Position numbers and translations under genes: made by a program. From Chloroflexota bacterium (lineage in GTDB: Bacteria; Chloroflexota; Anaerolineae; Anaerolineales; UBA11579), in NCBI GenBank assembly GCA_018662365.1, contig JABJGH010000035.1:149040-213039 (forward strand): a stretch of 64,000 nt of DNA, given 5' to 3'. The notes below the pieces were generated by a model that saw nothing but the letters and a program-made list of their open reading frames with translations, ran no database searches and had not been told where the DNA came from. Within the stretch, counting starts at the first letter, position 1. Each line of letters begins with the position of its first letter. Positions 6,011-47,680 of this stretch are shown here, piece after piece.

Positions 6011-6913
6011 ATGGCAAAAGAAGAAAACGGAAAAGAGATGGCAAGCTATAAATTGAAGGCTGGTTTAGCCCAAATGCTAAAGGGCGGCGTGATCATGGAT
6101 GTGGTCGATGCGGATCAAGCAAAGATCGCCGAAGATGCTGGGGCCGTAGCTGTGATGGCCTTAGAGCGCGTCCCCGCAGATATTCGTGCAGATGGTGGCG
6201 TGGCTCGCATGAGTGACCCCGATATGATCGAAAAGATCATGGCGATGGTCAGTATCCCTGTAATGGCAAAAGTTCGCATTGGTCATTTTGTGGAAGCGCA
6301 GATTTTAGAATCGATTGGCATCGACTATATTGATGAATCTGAAGTGCTTACTCCTGCAGATGAAGCCCATCATGTCAATAAGCATAAATTCAAAGTCCCC
6401 TTTGTATGTGGCTGTCTTAACTTAGGCGAGGCCTTACGCCGCATCAATGAAGGTGCCGCAATGATCCGCACTAAAGGTGAAGCTGGAACAGGCGATGTTG
6501 TGGAAGCAGTACGCCATGCCCGCACAGTATTCGGTGCCATTCGACAACTGCAAACCATGGCAGAAGAAGAAGTCTATGCCTATGCTAAAGAAATTCGTGC
6601 GCCCTATCACTTGGTCAATGAAGTCAAAGAACTTGGACGTCTCCCAGTGGTCAATTTTGCCGCTGGTGGCATTGCTACCCCTGCCGATGCCGCTTTAATG
6701 ATGCAGCTAGGTGTGGACGGTGTTTTTGTCGGATCCGGCATATTCAAGTCTGGTGATCCCGCAAGCCGCGCTGCTGCGATCGTAAAAGCAACGACCCATT
6801 TCAATAACCCCGAAATCTTGGCTGATGTGAGCCGCAACCTAGGTGAAGCGATGGTCGGACGCCAAATTTCTAGTATGTCTGACGATGAAAAACTAGCTGA
6901 TCGCGGCTGGTAG
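6011..6913 (+). CDS. pdxS: Pyridoxal 5'-phosphate synthase subunit PdxS
   Basis: This is the synthase subunit of the DXP-independent vitamin B6 pathway, which makes PLP from ribose 5-phosphate, glyceraldehyde 3-phosphate and ammonia. The 300-residue TIM barrel is full length. Family motifs are visible: [20 protein letters not shown] near the N-terminus, [13 protein letters not shown] with the catalytic lysine, the [11 protein letters not shown] phosphate region and [11 protein letters not shown] chose the ATG at 6011, 6 nt after GGAGG (6000-6004); an ATG at 6008 is too close to that site. pdxT follows 6 nt later and supplies ammonia. Confidence 0.97.
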
Positions 6914-40051: not shown

Positions 40052-40310
40052 CACATTAAACATATTACGCCATGACCGGGACGAGTAACCGGGTAGTTAC
40101 TAGCAGAGAGAGGCCACCTTAGACTGAAAGCGGCCTTTAGCAGCCCCCAGCCAAAACCCCCCGTGAGCGTCGACCAGAAAAAGATTCCCTCTTGAGTATG
40201 GAAAACGGTTGACCCCGTTATCCCGTCCATAAGATAGACGATCATCGTCTAAACTTAGGTGGAACCGTGCAAGCTGATGCTGGCGCCCTGAGAGGTGCGA
40301 GCATTTTTTG
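40052..40310 (+). promoter_or_regulatory. T-box riboswitch upstream of thrS
   Basis: The leader ends with the T-box sequence AGGTGGAACCGTG at 40257-40269. Upstream it has a GACGAGTAA segment (40080-40088) and a GCAGAGAG box (40103-40110), both typical of aminoacyl-tRNA-synthetase leaders. A terminator hairpin follows (ATGCT-GCGCC paired with GGTGC-AGCAT, 40277-40304, then six T). Uncharged tRNA-Thr would stabilise the antiterminator and raise thrS expression. I did not assign the specifier codon. A further hairpin (GGGCAA/TTGCCC) sits at about 40320-40337 before the ribosome-binding site. Confidence 0.9.
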
Positions 40311-40360: not shown

Positions 40361-42175
40361 ATGTCAGAACTAACCATACCCTACGAAGAAACGGAGATCT
40401 ACAAGGTCCGTCATTCCCTTGCCCACATCATGGCCCAGGCCGTCAGCGAACTATTTGAGCCCGGCGAAGCCAAGATCGCCATCGGTCCCCCCATCGATAC
40501 CGGCTTCTACTACGATTTCGAGCTACCGCGTCAACTCACCCCCGAAGATTTCAAGGGCATCGAGAAACGCATGCGCCAGATCATTGGCGGCAAGCACCCC
40601 TTTGAAAAACGCATCGTCACCGCCGAAGAAGCCAAAGCAGAGTTTGCTGGCCAAGAATTCAAGATTGACCTGATCGAAGGGCTCGAAGCAGGCGGCGTAG
40701 ATGAATATGGCGAACCCCTCGAAGGTGACGTTGAGATCTCCTTCTACACCCACGATACCTTCACCGACCTCTGCCGCGGCCCCCATGTCGAGCACACTGG
40801 CCAGATCAATCCTTCCGCCTTCAAGATCATGAGCATCGCCGGCGCCTACTGGCGCGGCGATGAAAAGAATGCCCAACTTCAGCGTGTCTATGGCACGGGT
40901 TGGAAGAACAAAGACGAACTCAAAGCCCATATCCAGATGCTCGAAGAAGCCAAAAAGCGCGACCACCGAAAATTAGGTCGCGAGCTAGACCTCTTCTCCT
41001 TTGACGAGGAAGTTGGCCCCGGCCTCCCCCTCTGGACACCCCGCGGCACCGTCATCATTGACGAGTTAGAAAAATTAGCCAAGGAAGTCGAGCGTCGTCA
41101 CGGTTACAAACAGGTCCGCACCCCCCACCTCACCAAAGAAGACCTCTTTATCCGCAGTGGTCACCTGCCTTATTATGCCGAAGGCATGTATCCCCCCATG
41201 GAACTCGACGGCAGCAATTATTATGTCAAGCCGATGAACTGCCCCTTCCATCATAAGATCTTTGCCAGCAGCCACCGCAGCTACCGAGACCTGCCCCTCC
41301 GTCTCGGCGAATACGGCACTTGTTATCGCTACGAGAAATCCGGCGAACTTTTCGGCCTCATGCGCGTCCGCTCCATGCAGATGAACGACGCCCATATCTA
41401 TGTCTCCGAAGCCCAGTTCGAAGAAGAATTCATGGATGTCATCGACATTTACAAAGAATATTTTGAACTCTTCGGCATCGAAAAATATGTCATGCAGCTC
41501 AGCTTACATGCCGCCGACGGCCTTGGCAAAAAGTACGTCGATAACGAGGCCCTCTGGATCAAGACCGAAGGCATGGTCCGCCAAGCGATGATCAACGGTG
41601 GCGTGCCCTTCGTTGAGGAAAAAGATGAAGCCGCCTTCTACGGCCCCAAGATCGATGTCCAGATCTGGTCCGCCATCGGCCGTGAATTCTCCCTCGCTAC
41701 CAACCAGGTTGACTTCGCCGTTCCCGAGCGTTTTGACCTCACCTTTGTCAATGCCGAAGGCGAAGAAGAAACCCCGCTTTGTATCCACCGTGCCCCACTC
41801 AGCACCCATGAGCGCATGGTCGGTTTTCTCATCGAACATTATGCTGGCAAGTTCCCCGTCTGGCTCTCCCCCGAGCATGTCCGCGTCATCCCCATCACCG
41901 ACGCCCATGCCGACTATGCCAAAAAGTTAGCCGACGACCTCTATAATCAAGGCTTCCGCGCCGAAGCCGACCTCGGTGACAAGCGCATGAACGCCAAGAT
42001 TCGCGATGCCCAAAAGATGCAGGTGCCCTATATGCTCGTCGTTGGTGACGCCGAAGTAGAAAACGGCACCGTCTCCCTCCGCAAACGCGATGGCAGCCAG
42101 CAAGACGGTCTTCCCGTCGCCGAATTTACCGCCATGCTCAAAGAAAAGGTCGAAACCCGCTCCCCGGAGTTGTAG
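40361..42175 (+). CDS. thrS: Threonyl-tRNA synthetase lacking the TGS domain
   Basis: About 604 residues. There is no N-terminal TGS domain: the protein opens directly with the editing domain (HSLAHIMAQAV, later DLCRGPHVEH). The class II core follows (MNCPFHH, RVRSMQMNDAHIYV, CIHRAPLSTHERM), so the zinc ligands Cys, His and His are present. The anticodon domain completes the C-terminus. I chose the ATG at 40361 since GGAG is 8 nt upstream. Codons end in C far more than in most neighbouring genes. The last 65 bp recur twice downstream. Confidence 0.96.
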   Translation: MSELTIPYEETEIYKVRHSLAHIMAQAVSELFEPGEAKIAIGPPIDTGFYYDFELPRQLTPEDFKGIEKRMRQIIGGKHPFEKRIVTAEEAKAEFAGQEFKIDLIEGLEAGGVDEYGEPLEGDVEISFYTHDTFTDLCRGPHVEHTGQINPSAFKIMSIAGAYWRGDEKNAQLQRVYGTGWKNKDELKAHIQMLEEAKKRDHRKLGRELDLFSFDEEVGPGLPLWTPRGTVIIDELEKLAKEVERRHGYKQVRTPHLTKEDLFIRSGHLPYYAEGMYPPMELDGSNYYVKPMNCPFHHKIFASSHRSYRDLPLRLGEYGTCYRYEKSGELFGLMRVRSMQMNDAHIYVSEAQFEEEFMDVIDIYKEYFELFGIEKYVMQLSLHAADGLGKKYVDNEALWIKTEGMVRQAMINGGVPFVEEKDEAAFYGPKIDVQIWSAIGREFSLATNQVDFAVPERFDLTFVNAEGEEETPLCIHRAPLSTHERMVGFLIEHYAGKFPVWLSPEHVRVIPITDAHADYAKKLADDLYNQGFRAEADLGDKRMNAKIRDAQKMQVPYMLVVGDAEVENGTVSLRKRDGSQQDGLPVAEFTAMLKEKVETRSPEL

Positions 42176-42199: not shown

Positions 42200-42454
42200 G
42201 GAGAATGGGAGCATTTGCTCTTCCCCATTCTCCCAGGAAGACGTTTTTTGTCTTCCACCATTCTACAAGGAAGCGGTTTTATCGCTTCCAATTCTCCTAA
42301 GGAAGATGGCTGTTGTCTTCCAGAAGACGTTTTATCGCTTCCAGAAATCGTTTTTCGATTTCCAATCTTCAAAAATGTAGAATGGGGGTTCTTGTTGTCC
42401 CCCATTCTACAAGGAAATCGTTTTTCGATTTCCACTTTCCTGCGAAGGCAGGAA
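42200..42454. repeat. Palindrome cluster A downstream of thrS
   Basis: A dense array without a gene. Long hairpins are at 42200-42233 (stem GGAGAATGGG) and 42377-42410 (stem GTAGAATGGGGG). Six 21-nt mini-hairpins of the form 7-bp stem, 7-nt loop lie at 42236, 42269, 42301, 42322, 42343 and 42413. A TTCCTGC-GAAG-GCAGGAA hairpin is at 42437-42454. The stems of the mini-hairpins differ but almost all keep pairing (GGAAGAC, GGAAGCG, GGAAGAT, AGAAATC, GGAAATC). The remaining sequence to 42595 holds the leader of the next gene. Confidence 0.88.
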
Positions 42455-42595
42455 TCCTGATTGTTTCTCCTTTAAACCTTGAGCAGCGTACCATCATTTC
42501 AGAAACAGTCAAATTTCGTTGTACAATGGAAGTACACAGTTTGAACGGGGGCAAAACAAACGGAACGATGATTTTTTTCTGAGAAAGGAGTCAAT

Positions 42596-42937
42596 ATGAA
42601 GAATCGATTCTGGACTTTTATTCCCGCTACCAAACTCGGCAAGTGGTCTGTCGCCCTCATTATCGCCATGTTTTTGCTCTTTTTCCTCGGCTCCTCCCTC
42701 ACCAACACCCTCTATCGCGATATCCCCTCCGGCAGCACCATCCCCGCAGATATTTTTGCCCGCCCCGTCCTTGGCCTTGCCATGCTCTCCGGCATGCTTG
42801 CCGGGGTTGTAGCCCTCTTCACCGGGCTGTTTGCCATCAAAAACCAACACGAACGCTCCCCCCTCGTCTACATTTCCACCCTCATTGGCGCACTTCTCCT
42901 CGTCTTTTTAATTGCAGAGGTCCTCTTTCCCCATTAG
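42596..42937 (+). CDS. Small membrane protein, unknown
   Basis: The product has 113 residues with three hydrophobic helices (about 18-35, 58-80, 88-108) and a basic N-terminus. No family recognised. Start ATG follows AAAGGAG at 6 nt. Codon use is C-ending like thrS, which suggests long residence or a shared source. It sits between thrS and a degenerate copy of the thrS 3' end, so it may be cargo of the duplication described there. Confidence 0.75.
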   Translation: MKNRFWTFIPATKLGKWSVALIIAMFLLFFLGSSLTNTLYRDIPSGSTIPADIFARPVLGLAMLSGMLAGVVALFTGLFAIKNQHERSPLVYISTLIGALLLVFLIAEVLFPH

Positions 42938-42975
42938 GTTTATAAAGCAGGGGATATAGATTAGCAAAGAGAAAT

Positions 42976-43094
42976 ATCTCCACCTATAAACGCGCCGACA
43001 GCAAACAAGACCGGATTTCAATCCGAGCCTCCCCATATCCGACTTCGCCGACATGCTTAAAGAGAAGGTCGAAAGCCGCTCCCCTGAGTTGTAA
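42976..43094 (+). pseudogene. Degenerate copy 2 of the thrS 3' end
   Basis: Positions 43029-43093 match 42110-42174 of thrS at 53 of 65 bases. In frame it reads MLKEKVESRSPEL and stop, against MLKEKVETRSPEL in thrS. Weaker similarity extends upstream to 42976 (aligned with thrS from 42071), with a 14-nt insertion that breaks the frame. The differences are mostly conservative, so it looks like the C-terminus of a related thrS rather than random decay. Confidence 0.85.
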
Positions 43095-43113
43095 GAAGTG
43101 AAATTTGCTTAAT

Positions 43114-43261
43114 GGAGAATGGGGAGCCTTATCTTTTCCCCATTCTCCAAGGAATCCGTTTTATGGATTCCACCATTCCTGCGAAGGCAGGAATCTCGCT
43201 TTACCTCCCAATTCTCCAAGGAAACCGTTATTTGGTTTCCAGAAGTCGTTTTATGACTTCC
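43114..43261. repeat. Palindrome cluster B after the second thrS end
   Basis: One long hairpin at 43114-43148 (stem GGAGAATGGGGA) is followed by mini-hairpins at 43151 (stem GGAATCC), 43220 (GGAAACC) and 43241 (AGAAGTC), and by ATTCCTGC-GAAG-GCAGGAAT at 43175-43194. The order repeats that of cluster A. Confidence 0.88.
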
Positions 43262-44057: not shown

Positions 44058-45653
44058 ATGAAAATCGAATTGCCCAATAAAACAAACGCTTCAGAAAGGA
44101 CTAATATAGATTCAAAAAGTGTTGTGGTTATTGGTGCAAATGGGGCTGGTAAAACGCGGTTTGGTTCTGAAATTGAAAGAACACACCTTCGGAAAACACA
44201 TAGAATCTCTGCACAAAAATCTTTATCAATGCCAGAACAAGTTAGCCCCACATCAATGAAAAATGCAGAAAATGATTTTCGTTATGGTCACACTAGAGGA
44301 AATTTTAATAATATAATCACAAGTCGCTGGAGTAGTAAACCTAACACTTTTTTATTAAACGACTATGGAAAACTAATGGTTTTGCTTCACACTGAAGAAT
44401 ACGAAGAATCTATAAAATTTAAGTACTCCTACTCCCCTGGTCAAGGGGATGATAAACCAGTAACAAAGTTAGATAGAATAAAGAATATTTGGGAAAAAGT
44501 ACTTCCTCACCGAAAAATAAAAATTAATGCAGGAAATATTGAAACTTACCCAACAAATTTCCCTGATACCAAATACAATGCCGCTGAAATGAGTGACGGT
44601 GAAAGGGTTGTTTTTTATTTAATTGGGGAGGTTGTTTCAGTTTCGGAAAACTCAATTTTAGTAATTGATGAACCCGAGATGCACCTTCACAAATCGATAA
44701 TAAAACCATTGTGGGACAGAATTGAACACGAAAGACCAGATTGCACTTTTATATATTTGACTCACGATATTGACTTTGCTTTGTCTCGCCTAAATTCAAC
44801 GAAAATATGGGTAAAGGGTTACGATGGAGTGTCATGGGATTATGAAATACTAGAAGAGAATGACAAAATACCAGAACAGCTTTATCTTGAAATTCTTGGA
44901 AGTAGAAAACCCGTATTGTTTATTGAAGGGGACGATTCGAGCATAGATTACAAATTGTTTCAGCTGACATTTCCTGACCACAATGTAAAACCAATAGGGG
45001 GTTGCACAAAGGTTTTTGAAACAACGAAAGCATTTAATGAACAAAAATCTTTTCACCACATCGAATCTTTTGGCTTGATCGATAGGGATAGAAGATCTGA
45101 TGAAGATATAAGAAAAATCGAAAAGAGAAATATATGGATTGCCGATGTAGCTGAAGCCGAAAATTTCCTTTTATTAGAAGAAGTGATTTTCATTGTTGCA
45201 AACAAGATGAATAAAGATGCAAAAGGGGTATTTGAGTCGGTAAAAATCAATGTGATTGATTTTTTTAGTAGCCAAATTGAGTTTCAATCCGCACAACATA
45301 CTTTGGCCAGCATTGAGACAAATCTAGGAAAAGCAACTAACTTTAAGAGTATCAAAAATTACTCGGATTTAGAAACAAGTTTAAATGATTATTGGGCTAA
45401 TCTGGATATTGCAAACACGTTCAATATAATAAAAACTAAATTTGAAACGTTAGTTTCAAACCAGGACTATGTTGGAATTTTGAAAGTTTTTAATAATAAG
45501 GGACTAATTCCAAATTCAAAGGTAGCAAGTTTGTGCGATCTAAAATCATCCAATAATGCTTACCTTAATTTTATATTGGCTATATTAAAAGAAAAATCAA
45601 AAAGCAGTGAGATTATTCAAGAGGCTATAACTAGAAATGTGCGGATGGATTAA
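44058..45653 (+). CDS. Fused AAA ATPase-DUF4435 (TOPRIM-like) protein, PARIS/OLD-like
   Basis: The product has 531 residues. The ABC-type ATPase half has Walker A GANGAGKTRFG, signature MSDGERVVFY, Walker B ILVIDEPEMHLH and LTHD. The second half from about residue 285 begins PVLFIEGDDSSIDYKLFQ and includes FGLIDRDRRSDEDI, the acidic E...DxD arrangement of TOPRIM/DUF4435 nuclease domains. AriA (ATPase) and AriB (DUF4435) form the PARIS anti-phage system, and fused forms are known; OLD nucleases share the logic. A defence role is inferred. AT-rich relative to neighbours. Confidence 0.82.
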   Translation: MKIELPNKTNASERTNIDSKSVVVIGANGAGKTRFGSEIERTHLRKTHRISAQKSLSMPEQVSPTSMKNAENDFRYGHTRGNFNNIITSRWSSKPNTFLLNDYGKLMVLLHTEEYEESIKFKYSYSPGQGDDKPVTKLDRIKNIWEKVLPHRKIKINAGNIETYPTNFPDTKYNAAEMSDGERVVFYLIGEVVSVSENSILVIDEPEMHLHKSIIKPLWDRIEHERPDCTFIYLTHDIDFALSRLNSTKIWVKGYDGVSWDYEILEENDKIPEQLYLEILGSRKPVLFIEGDDSSIDYKLFQLTFPDHNVKPIGGCTKVFETTKAFNEQKSFHHIESFGLIDRDRRSDEDIRKIEKRNIWIADVAEAENFLLLEEVIFIVANKMNKDAKGVFESVKINVIDFFSSQIEFQSAQHTLASIETNLGKATNFKSIKNYSDLETSLNDYWANLDIANTFNIIKTKFETLVSNQDYVGILKVFNNKGLIPNSKVASLCDLKSSNNAYLNFILAILKEKSKSSEIIQEAITRNVRMD

Positions 45654-46981: not shown

Positions 46982-47111
46982 TTGCAACCTAACCCCATTC
47001 CATAAAGAAGTTAGCATAATCCACGTCAACTCAATAATGTTCCATTCGGGGTTCAAAGGGGGTGAAACCCCCTTGCGGGGGTGGTGGGGGTAAGCGCCCC
47101 CACCAAAAAAA
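46982..47111 (-). repeat. Intergenic repeat, copy 1
   Basis: Shares with copy 2 the termini (TTGCAA-CTAACCC at one end, CCCCCACCAAAAAA at the other) and a 34-bp identical block at 47030-47063. It contains a GGGGG-TGAAA-CCCCC hairpin. Confidence 0.75.
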
Positions 47112-47170
47112 AGGAAAATGCCCCAATAACAAATCCACTGCATCCACCCGGTGCCGCCCCGGTCCCAAAT

Positions 47171-47388: not shown

Positions 47389-47446
47389 TGGAGAATGGGG
47401 CGTTGTATTTTGTCCCATTCTCCTAAGGAAACGGTTTTATCGTTTC
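47389..47446. repeat. Palindrome pair of the thrS-end type
   Basis: A long hairpin (stem GGAGAATGGG, 47389-47422) is followed after three bases by a 21-nt mini-hairpin (stem GGAAACG, loop GTTTTAT, 47426-47446), the same order as in clusters A and B. Confidence 0.85.
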
Positions 47447-47501
47447 CAAATTCCCCACATCCGAAACTTTGCAATTTTAGGGAATATGTATTCAAGGCTT
47501 C

Positions 47502-47680
47502 TTGCAATCTAACCCTCAACCTAAAGACTTCAGCAGGTTCCTCGCCCACTCAATAATGTTCCATTCGGGGTTCAAAGGGGGTTTGGAATAAAAAACATTC
47601 CTTGGAGAATGAGGTGAAACCTCATTCTCCCTTAGCGAAGCGGCGGGGTGAGTGGGGGGACTTACCCCCACCAAAAAACA
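47502..47680 (-). repeat. Intergenic repeat, copy 2, enlarged by palindromes
   Basis: Matches copy 1 at both ends and through the block around 47550-47583. Its middle carries extra hairpins: GGAAT-ATTCC at 47585-47601 and GGAGAATGAGG-TGAAA-CCTCATTCTCC at 47604-47630. The two copies thus differ by insertion or exchange of palindromic segments. Confidence 0.72.

Follow-up and report, generated by a model that had tools for sequence, protein, structure and literature searches.

In REPs of the GTAG type, the hairpin bears at its foot a tetranucleotide with which TnpA-REP makes contact (PMC8266576). REPs of the CGTC type have no transposase link, and show stems of 8-9 bp, loops of 4-5 nt and a CCA tail (PMC3733652). 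Complementary changes in the stem were found to be the rule in a survey of REPs (PMC3733652), and the arms of REPINs also change in compensating ways (PMC3116915). The hairpins at the ends of IS200/IS605 elements, 20-25 nt long with T-containing loops, are read as folded single strands (PMC6006769, PMC8266576).

A hairpin family that stands close to these systems is described here. It was seen in a window, by which we mean the whole stretch of 64,000 nucleotides that was analysed; it lies on contig C13 of a genome of 2.79 Mb (66 contigs, 94% complete). The sequence-only reading of this DNA had listed ten 21-nt units sharing an outer GGAA/TTCC, with inner stem pairs that vary together. Such a unit is called H2 below, and H1 is the other hairpin that precedes it. 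The features concerned are the following (positions in the window).

42200..42233, + strand: H1 hairpin of array 1, GGAGAATGGGAGCATTTGCTCTTCCCCATTCTCC (from the sequence; repeat family D1)
42236..42256, + strand: H2 unit GGAAGAC-GTTTTTT-GTCTTCC
42269..42289, + strand: H2 unit GGAAGCG-GTTTTAT-CGCTTCC, with a stray H1 3′ arm CCATTCTACAA before it
42301..42321, + strand: H2 unit GGAAGAT-GGCTGTT-GTCTTCC, with one G.T pair
42322..42342, + strand: degenerate H2 unit AGAAGAC-GTTTTAT-CGCTTCC, inner pairs broken
42343..42363, + strand: H2 unit AGAAATC-GTTTTTC-GATTTCC
42376..42411, + strand: H1 hairpin with a double change of the outer stem, GTAG...CTAC replacing GGAG...CTCC
42413..42433, + strand: H2 unit GGAAATC-GTTTTTC-GATTTCC
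42437..42454, no strand assigned: degenerate CGTC-type REP (TTCCTGC GAAG GCAGGAA), directly 3′ of an H2
43029..43093, + strand: decayed copy of the thrS 3′ end (42110-42174), 82% identical, preceding array 2
43114..43148, + strand: H1 hairpin of array 2, GGAGAATGGGGAGCC...TTCCCCATTCTCC
43151..43171, + strand: H2 unit GGAATCC-GTTTTAT-GGATTCC
43175..43194, no strand assigned: REP of the CGTC type, ATTCCTGCGAAGGCAGGAAT, intact here but interrupted by an H1/H2 insert on contig C15
43220..43240, + strand: H2 unit GGAAACC-GTTATTT-GGTTTCC
43241..43261, + strand: H2 unit AGAAGTC-GTTTTAT-GACTTCC
47390..47423, + strand: H1 hairpin GGAGAATGGGGCG...TCCCATTCTCC
47427..47447, + strand: H2 unit GGAAACG-GTTTTAT-CGTTTCC
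47585..47601, - strand: short-stem H2 GGAAT-GTTTTTT-ATTCC
47604..47630, - strand: H1 hairpin GGAGAATGAGGT-TTC-ACCTCATTCTCC

Direct reading of the ten listed sites shows all three inner pairs formed in nine of them, with the triplets GAC/GTC, GCG/CGC, GAT/GTC (one G.T), ATC/GAT (twice), TCC/GGA, ACC/GGT, GTC/GAC and ACG/CGT. In the remaining unit, at 42322 (AGAAGACGTTTTATCGCTTCC), one inner pair out of three is formed. At the composition of the window, at least nine fully paired triplets out of ten would be expected by chance with a probability of 3e-11. Thus, the statement that pairing is kept in nearly all units is borne out, and the list itself needs two corrections: the unit at 42322 is broken and the one placed at 47426 begins at 47427.

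The whole genome was then searched in an unbiased manner with the pattern GGAAnnnGTTnnnnnnnTTCC, with no pairing condition. At the 20 sites obtained, 46 of the 60 inner cells are paired, against 29.6 with shuffled 3′ arms, and none of 20,000 shuffles reached such a value. Compensatory pairs therefore exceed chance genome-wide, and the sequence-only reading, which had proposed this check and staked its case on the outcome, stands on this point. Twenty units aligned together (A2) give a covariation score of 0.391, versus 0.102 after shuffling, and the score falls to 0.10 or less when the partner position is slid. With a wider set of units (alignment A4) the score rises to 0.538, versus 0.142 for the shuffled set and at most 0.133 for the slid controls; double changes occur in six of the seven stem pairs and 92.3% of the cells pair. 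Finally, among 37 distinct units, 35 from the host genome and two from a relative (G023), pairs 2-6 comprise 177 Watson-Crick cells out of 185, as compared with 115 after shuffling, the others being 2 G.T, 1 A.C and 5 of other kinds. The hairpins are real and their covariation is far above chance.

The GGAA motif of the first reading belongs to a larger family, of which it is one branch. Ahead of every strong unit stands the 3′ arm of another hairpin, in the arrangement ...CATTCTCC-AA-GGAA...TTCC-A. This other hairpin, H1, has the form GGAGAATGG...CCATTCTCC, its loop ranging from a few nucleotides to several tens, and the usual layout is a GGAG...CTCC hairpin (H1), then AA, the 21-nt H2, and A. 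A covariance model including this flank and built from GGAA units only (R1) recovered units in which the outer stem has also changed in pairs: GCCAACG/CGTTGGC, GATAACG/CGTTATC, GCTAACA/CGTTAGC, GCAAATA/CATTTGC and GGAGACG/CGTCTCC. The outer GGAA/TTCC, taken at first as the common part of the family, thus covaries as well (GCC/GGC, GAT/ATC, GCT/AGC, GCG/CGC); in the window already, three listed units (42322, 42343 and 43241) begin with AGAA. Since the outer stem too changes in pairs, the invariants are the loop, the first G-C pair, kept in most copies, and the flanks. The 7-nt loop reads GTTTYAY, with G first in 37 of 37 units and T at position 3 in 35 of 37, and the flanks CTCC-AA...A are conserved as sequence. 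Nearly all stem letters are replaceable, as pairs. Variants with a short stem keep the 7-nt loop (GGAGT-GTTTTTT-ACTCC), a copy with a longer stem is found on contig C27, and H1 also has paired variants: GTAG/CTAC at 42376-42411, GGAGTTTGC/GCAAACTCC on C23 and GGAGTTCC/GGAACTCC in G023. The proposal that the fold and not the sequence is under selection is therefore not supported in that form: pairing in the stem survives double changes, but loop and flanks are conserved as sequence.

A wider covariance model built from alignment A4 (R2) gave 37 matches at E<0.01 in the host genome, about 36 of them distinct after removal of one shared contig end. The units are spread over at least twelve contigs, between unrelated genes; all examined copies are intergenic, and several contigs terminate within the repeats. 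Tandem arrays have a single H1 5′ arm followed by a repeated module made of the H1 3′ arm and H2, with a period of 31 nt (C58:2674-2766), and H2 alone is repeated with a 21-nt period at 42301-42363. Mirror forms, rc(H2)-TT-H1-AA-H2 with one common H1, occur at C48:90949-91047 and on C15. Larger segments have also been duplicated around the arrays. A 65-nt stretch from the 3′ end of thrS (42110-42174) recurs ahead of array 2, so that a segment made of the thrS tail and an array was duplicated around a 113-aa ORF. On C58, an 83-nt gene start has two copies with 86% identity, one on either side of an H1-H2 element (L051:6255-6337 and 6436-6518).

Several other features were observed. The decayed thrS copy carries a small palindrome (CGGATTTCAATCCG) that is absent in thrS. 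A T-box leader lies directly upstream of thrS (window 40063-40293; 77 bits, below the 93-bit cut-off of Rfam, E 1e-15). The arrays adjoin a gene for an AAA_21 + DUF4435 protein, a defence-like ATPase (44058-45653). A second family of palindromes, rich in G, is present at 47040-47113 and 47640-47680 (GGTGGGGG..CCCCCACC, CCCCCGCAAGGGGG, with the common tail CCCCTTTGAACCCCGAATGGAAC) and also on C15, C26 and C48; a weak Rfam match on the copy at 47040-47113 (E 3.7) is far below the gathering score. An operator-like sequence, AGAACATATGTnCTA, recurs in promoter-like sequence at L054:14205(-), L058:7060(+), L062:173(+) and window 47766, three times directly 3′ of an H2; by sequence reading, it stands upstream of unrelated genes (helicase, acyl-CoA dehydrogenase, pyruvate phosphate dikinase).

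Movement of the block as DNA is best supported by one nested copy on C15 (C15:130620-130748, locus L126). There, the loop of a CGTC-type REP is the exact point of interruption, GCGAGATTCCTGCC and TTCGCAGGAATGG being separated by a 98-nt block organised as rc(H2)-TT-H1-CCGC-degenerate H2. Joined together, the flanks give GCGAGATTCCTGCCTTCGCAGGAATGG, identical to the reverse strand of window 43173-43199, where the REP is intact. In this single clean case no base was lost and none duplicated. Single-strand transposons produce no target-site duplication, so the absence of such a duplication at this site is compatible with movement.

The distribution of the repeats points in the same direction. Searches with R2 over 400 genomes of the order yielded one other positive, G023, a member of the same taxonomic family as the host, with two copies; these large samples used stricter filters and weak copies may be missed. 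Among 24 genomes of this taxonomic family, G023 was again the only one besides the host. Its copies are convincing (GGAGTTCC..GGAACTCC-AAC-GCGAACAGTTTCATCGTTCGC-A) and lie 3 and 33 nt before tRNA genes. No copies were found in a genome of the same genus (73% complete) or in two scans of viral contigs. Some candidates were set aside. The single R2 match at class level (396 genomes), in G657, looks coding-like; R1 gave many matches at E~1e-3 in relatives, the best 19 of which are mostly coding-like chance matches that do not conform to the family; and a wide contig scan gave three single matches in unrelated phyla, about what we estimate chance to produce. At thrS, a comparison with orthologous empty sites is precluded across the taxonomic family by the loss of synteny on the downstream side. 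The repeat family is real and lineage-restricted, and its sporadic distribution fits mobility, not vertical inheritance.

How, then, should the covariation be understood? It does not by itself establish the selection inferred at first, because template switching within a hairpin can produce double compensatory changes in one step, without any selection, as documented for hairpins (PMC8794818). Template switching remains a live contributor. Taken to its end, this idea would make the units relics of tandem and dispersed duplication whose arms have been matched by template switching, with neither function nor active spread. The rarity of pairing intermediates and the partial gene duplications beside the arrays, the thrS tail (82%) and the C58 gene start, fit such a history. 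It would leave dispersal to many unrelated loci unexplained, however, and template switching has no reason to keep the loop and the flanks; no unit was found with its loop inverted. We regard this explanation as unlikely, and attach the same low probability to a role as RNA. In that case H1-H2 would be transcribed at mRNA 3′ ends or in leaders, as a stabiliser or as a processing or termination signal, and the covariation would reflect selection on the RNA fold. Array 1 indeed folds strongly, with z -9.8 as RNA, but z is -10.1 as DNA and the measure does not discriminate. It starts 25 nt past the thrS stop, where there is no T-tailed terminator, and the relatives G008 and G003 have ordinary ones after thrS. 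The orientation of H2 mildly favours the direction of the downstream gene (16 of 21, p=0.03, hand count), and some copies lie just before tRNA genes or promoters, as in G023 or on C31, where the copy stands between tRNA-Tyr and tRNA-Thr; a part in RNA or in gene regulation is thus conceivable. Nevertheless, G.U pairs are nearly absent from the variable stem positions, whereas they make up 17 of 222 pairs (7.7%) in tRNA stems used as a control (Fisher p=0.0016, with only ten tRNAs). Such a scarcity of wobble on both strands is more readily reconciled with hairpins of DNA, or with arms copied from each other as templates, than with an RNA evolving slowly by compensatory changes. Only the pair adjoining the loop departs from this; it is A.C in 15 units and may be part of the loop. 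Moreover, no T tract follows the hairpins, and identification as intrinsic terminators was rejected; Rfam gave nothing relevant over the hairpins at E<5 and no match at gathering score, mirror forms would act on both strands, and the family is present in one relative only.

It may also be imagined that the units are ordinary REPs whose RAYT (TnpA-REP) is absent from the assembly or was lost. Their size, palindromy, intergenic location, doublets and complementary stem changes match REPs and REPINs (PMC3116915), and as a short imperfect palindrome, repeated, and intergenic at the loci examined, H2 agrees with the general definition of a REP. The foot of the hairpin nonetheless bears no tag on either side: in the aligned units the flanks are CTCC-AA and A, and no GTAG-like tetranucleotide (GTAG, GTGG, GYAG) occurs there. 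The CGTC end tag is also absent from H2, as are an AT stem start, a 4-5 nt loop and a CCA tail. The view that no known REP family fits thus agrees with the tags of the described REP superfamilies (PMC3733652). As for a mobiliser, a PF01797 search of this 94% complete genome found no intact RAYT. Its one Y1_Tnp match, on C52, lies towards the C terminus of a receiver-domain protein of 540 aa, with PEYIQW in place of the HUH motif and apparently F in place of the catalytic Tyr; judging from these residues, the domain would be inactive. The RAYT link suggested earlier was examined in this way, and the sole Y1-transposase-like gene found in the genome is a response-regulator fusion in which the HUH and Tyr residues look lost. 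We therefore consider ordinary REPs with a missing RAYT very improbable. The fusion gene itself (L059:3261-4883, - strand), with a receiver domain and a Y1-transposase-like domain, possibly represents a domesticated HUH domain in a regulator.

On balance, we think it fairly probable that the units belong to a non-autonomous palindromic repeat, H1-AA-H2-A, that spreads as DNA between genes in the host lineage. The element consists of H1 (GGAG...CTCC), AA, H2 with a stem of 5 to 11 bp and the loop GTTTYAY, and a final A, sometimes in mirrored form. Its spread as DNA would probably take place at replication forks, in the form of a folded single strand, and an enzyme supplied in trans would read the hairpin, its loop and its CTCC-AA/A foot but not the letters of the stem. 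Stems would drift as pairs, either because broken hairpins are no longer copied or because template switching copies one arm onto the other, or both. After insertion, the module made of the H1 3′ arm and H2, which is observed in tandem repeats of 21 or 31 nt, would multiply locally. A bolder proposal, which we hold to be rather unlikely, is that these repeats form a class of bacterial mobile hairpins recognised not by a foot tag but by the conserved loop and the H1-AA-H2-A layout. They would move without a RAYT and insert into the loops of other palindromes, so that one hairpin comes to lie inside another, with stems that stay free to evolve as pairs. In any case, the family offers a clean and testable example of a repeat that keeps its pairing and its loop but not the sequence of its stem. 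It sets apart two causes that are usually merged, selection on a hairpin and repair of palindromes by template switching. If the nested-insertion reading is true, it points to an enzyme acting on hairpin DNA in a lineage that lacks a working RAYT. Should it be false, the family still serves as a caution that an RNA is not proved by covariation alone.

Comparison with known systems helps to place the repeat. With the integron attC site it shares a structure that is conserved with little sequence conservation, and AAC...GTT is present in many H2 stems. In contrast to RYYYAAC/GTTRRRY, the AAC/GTT of H2 adjoins the loop and not the base, the unit is only 21 nt long and no cassette lies between copies. 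An attC identity was rejected since no R boxes are found at the base of H2 (G..C, variable letters). The end hairpins of IS200/IS605 and their non-autonomous derivatives resemble H2 in size and in their T-containing loop, but no left-end/right-end pair around a gene or a MITE body was seen, and no active TnpA was found. CGTC-type REPs, such as Neisseria dRS3-like repeats, have covarying palindrome stems, no transposase association and a short unpaired tail, as does H2, and they occur in the same arrays of the window; H2 differs from them by the lack of the CGTC tag, a loop of 7 nt instead of 4-5, and its coupling to H1. The likeness to GTAG REPs and REPINs covers short intergenic palindromes arranged as singles, doublets and clusters, variable stem length, and complementary changes of the arms (PMC3116915, PMC3733652, PMC8266576). 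Here the differences are the missing GTAG tag, the conserved 7-nt loop (REPs usually have 2-5 nt), a number of only about 36 copies, modest for a REP, and the lack of a working RAYT. No named Chloroflexi family of such a form was found in the open-licence literature. The family lacks both tags, its conserved loop is longer and its partner hairpin is compulsory; it is therefore placed beside REPs, not as a REP. It is best read as a new REP-like or MITE-like variant among the bacterial interspersed palindromic repeats, one that spreads as DNA.
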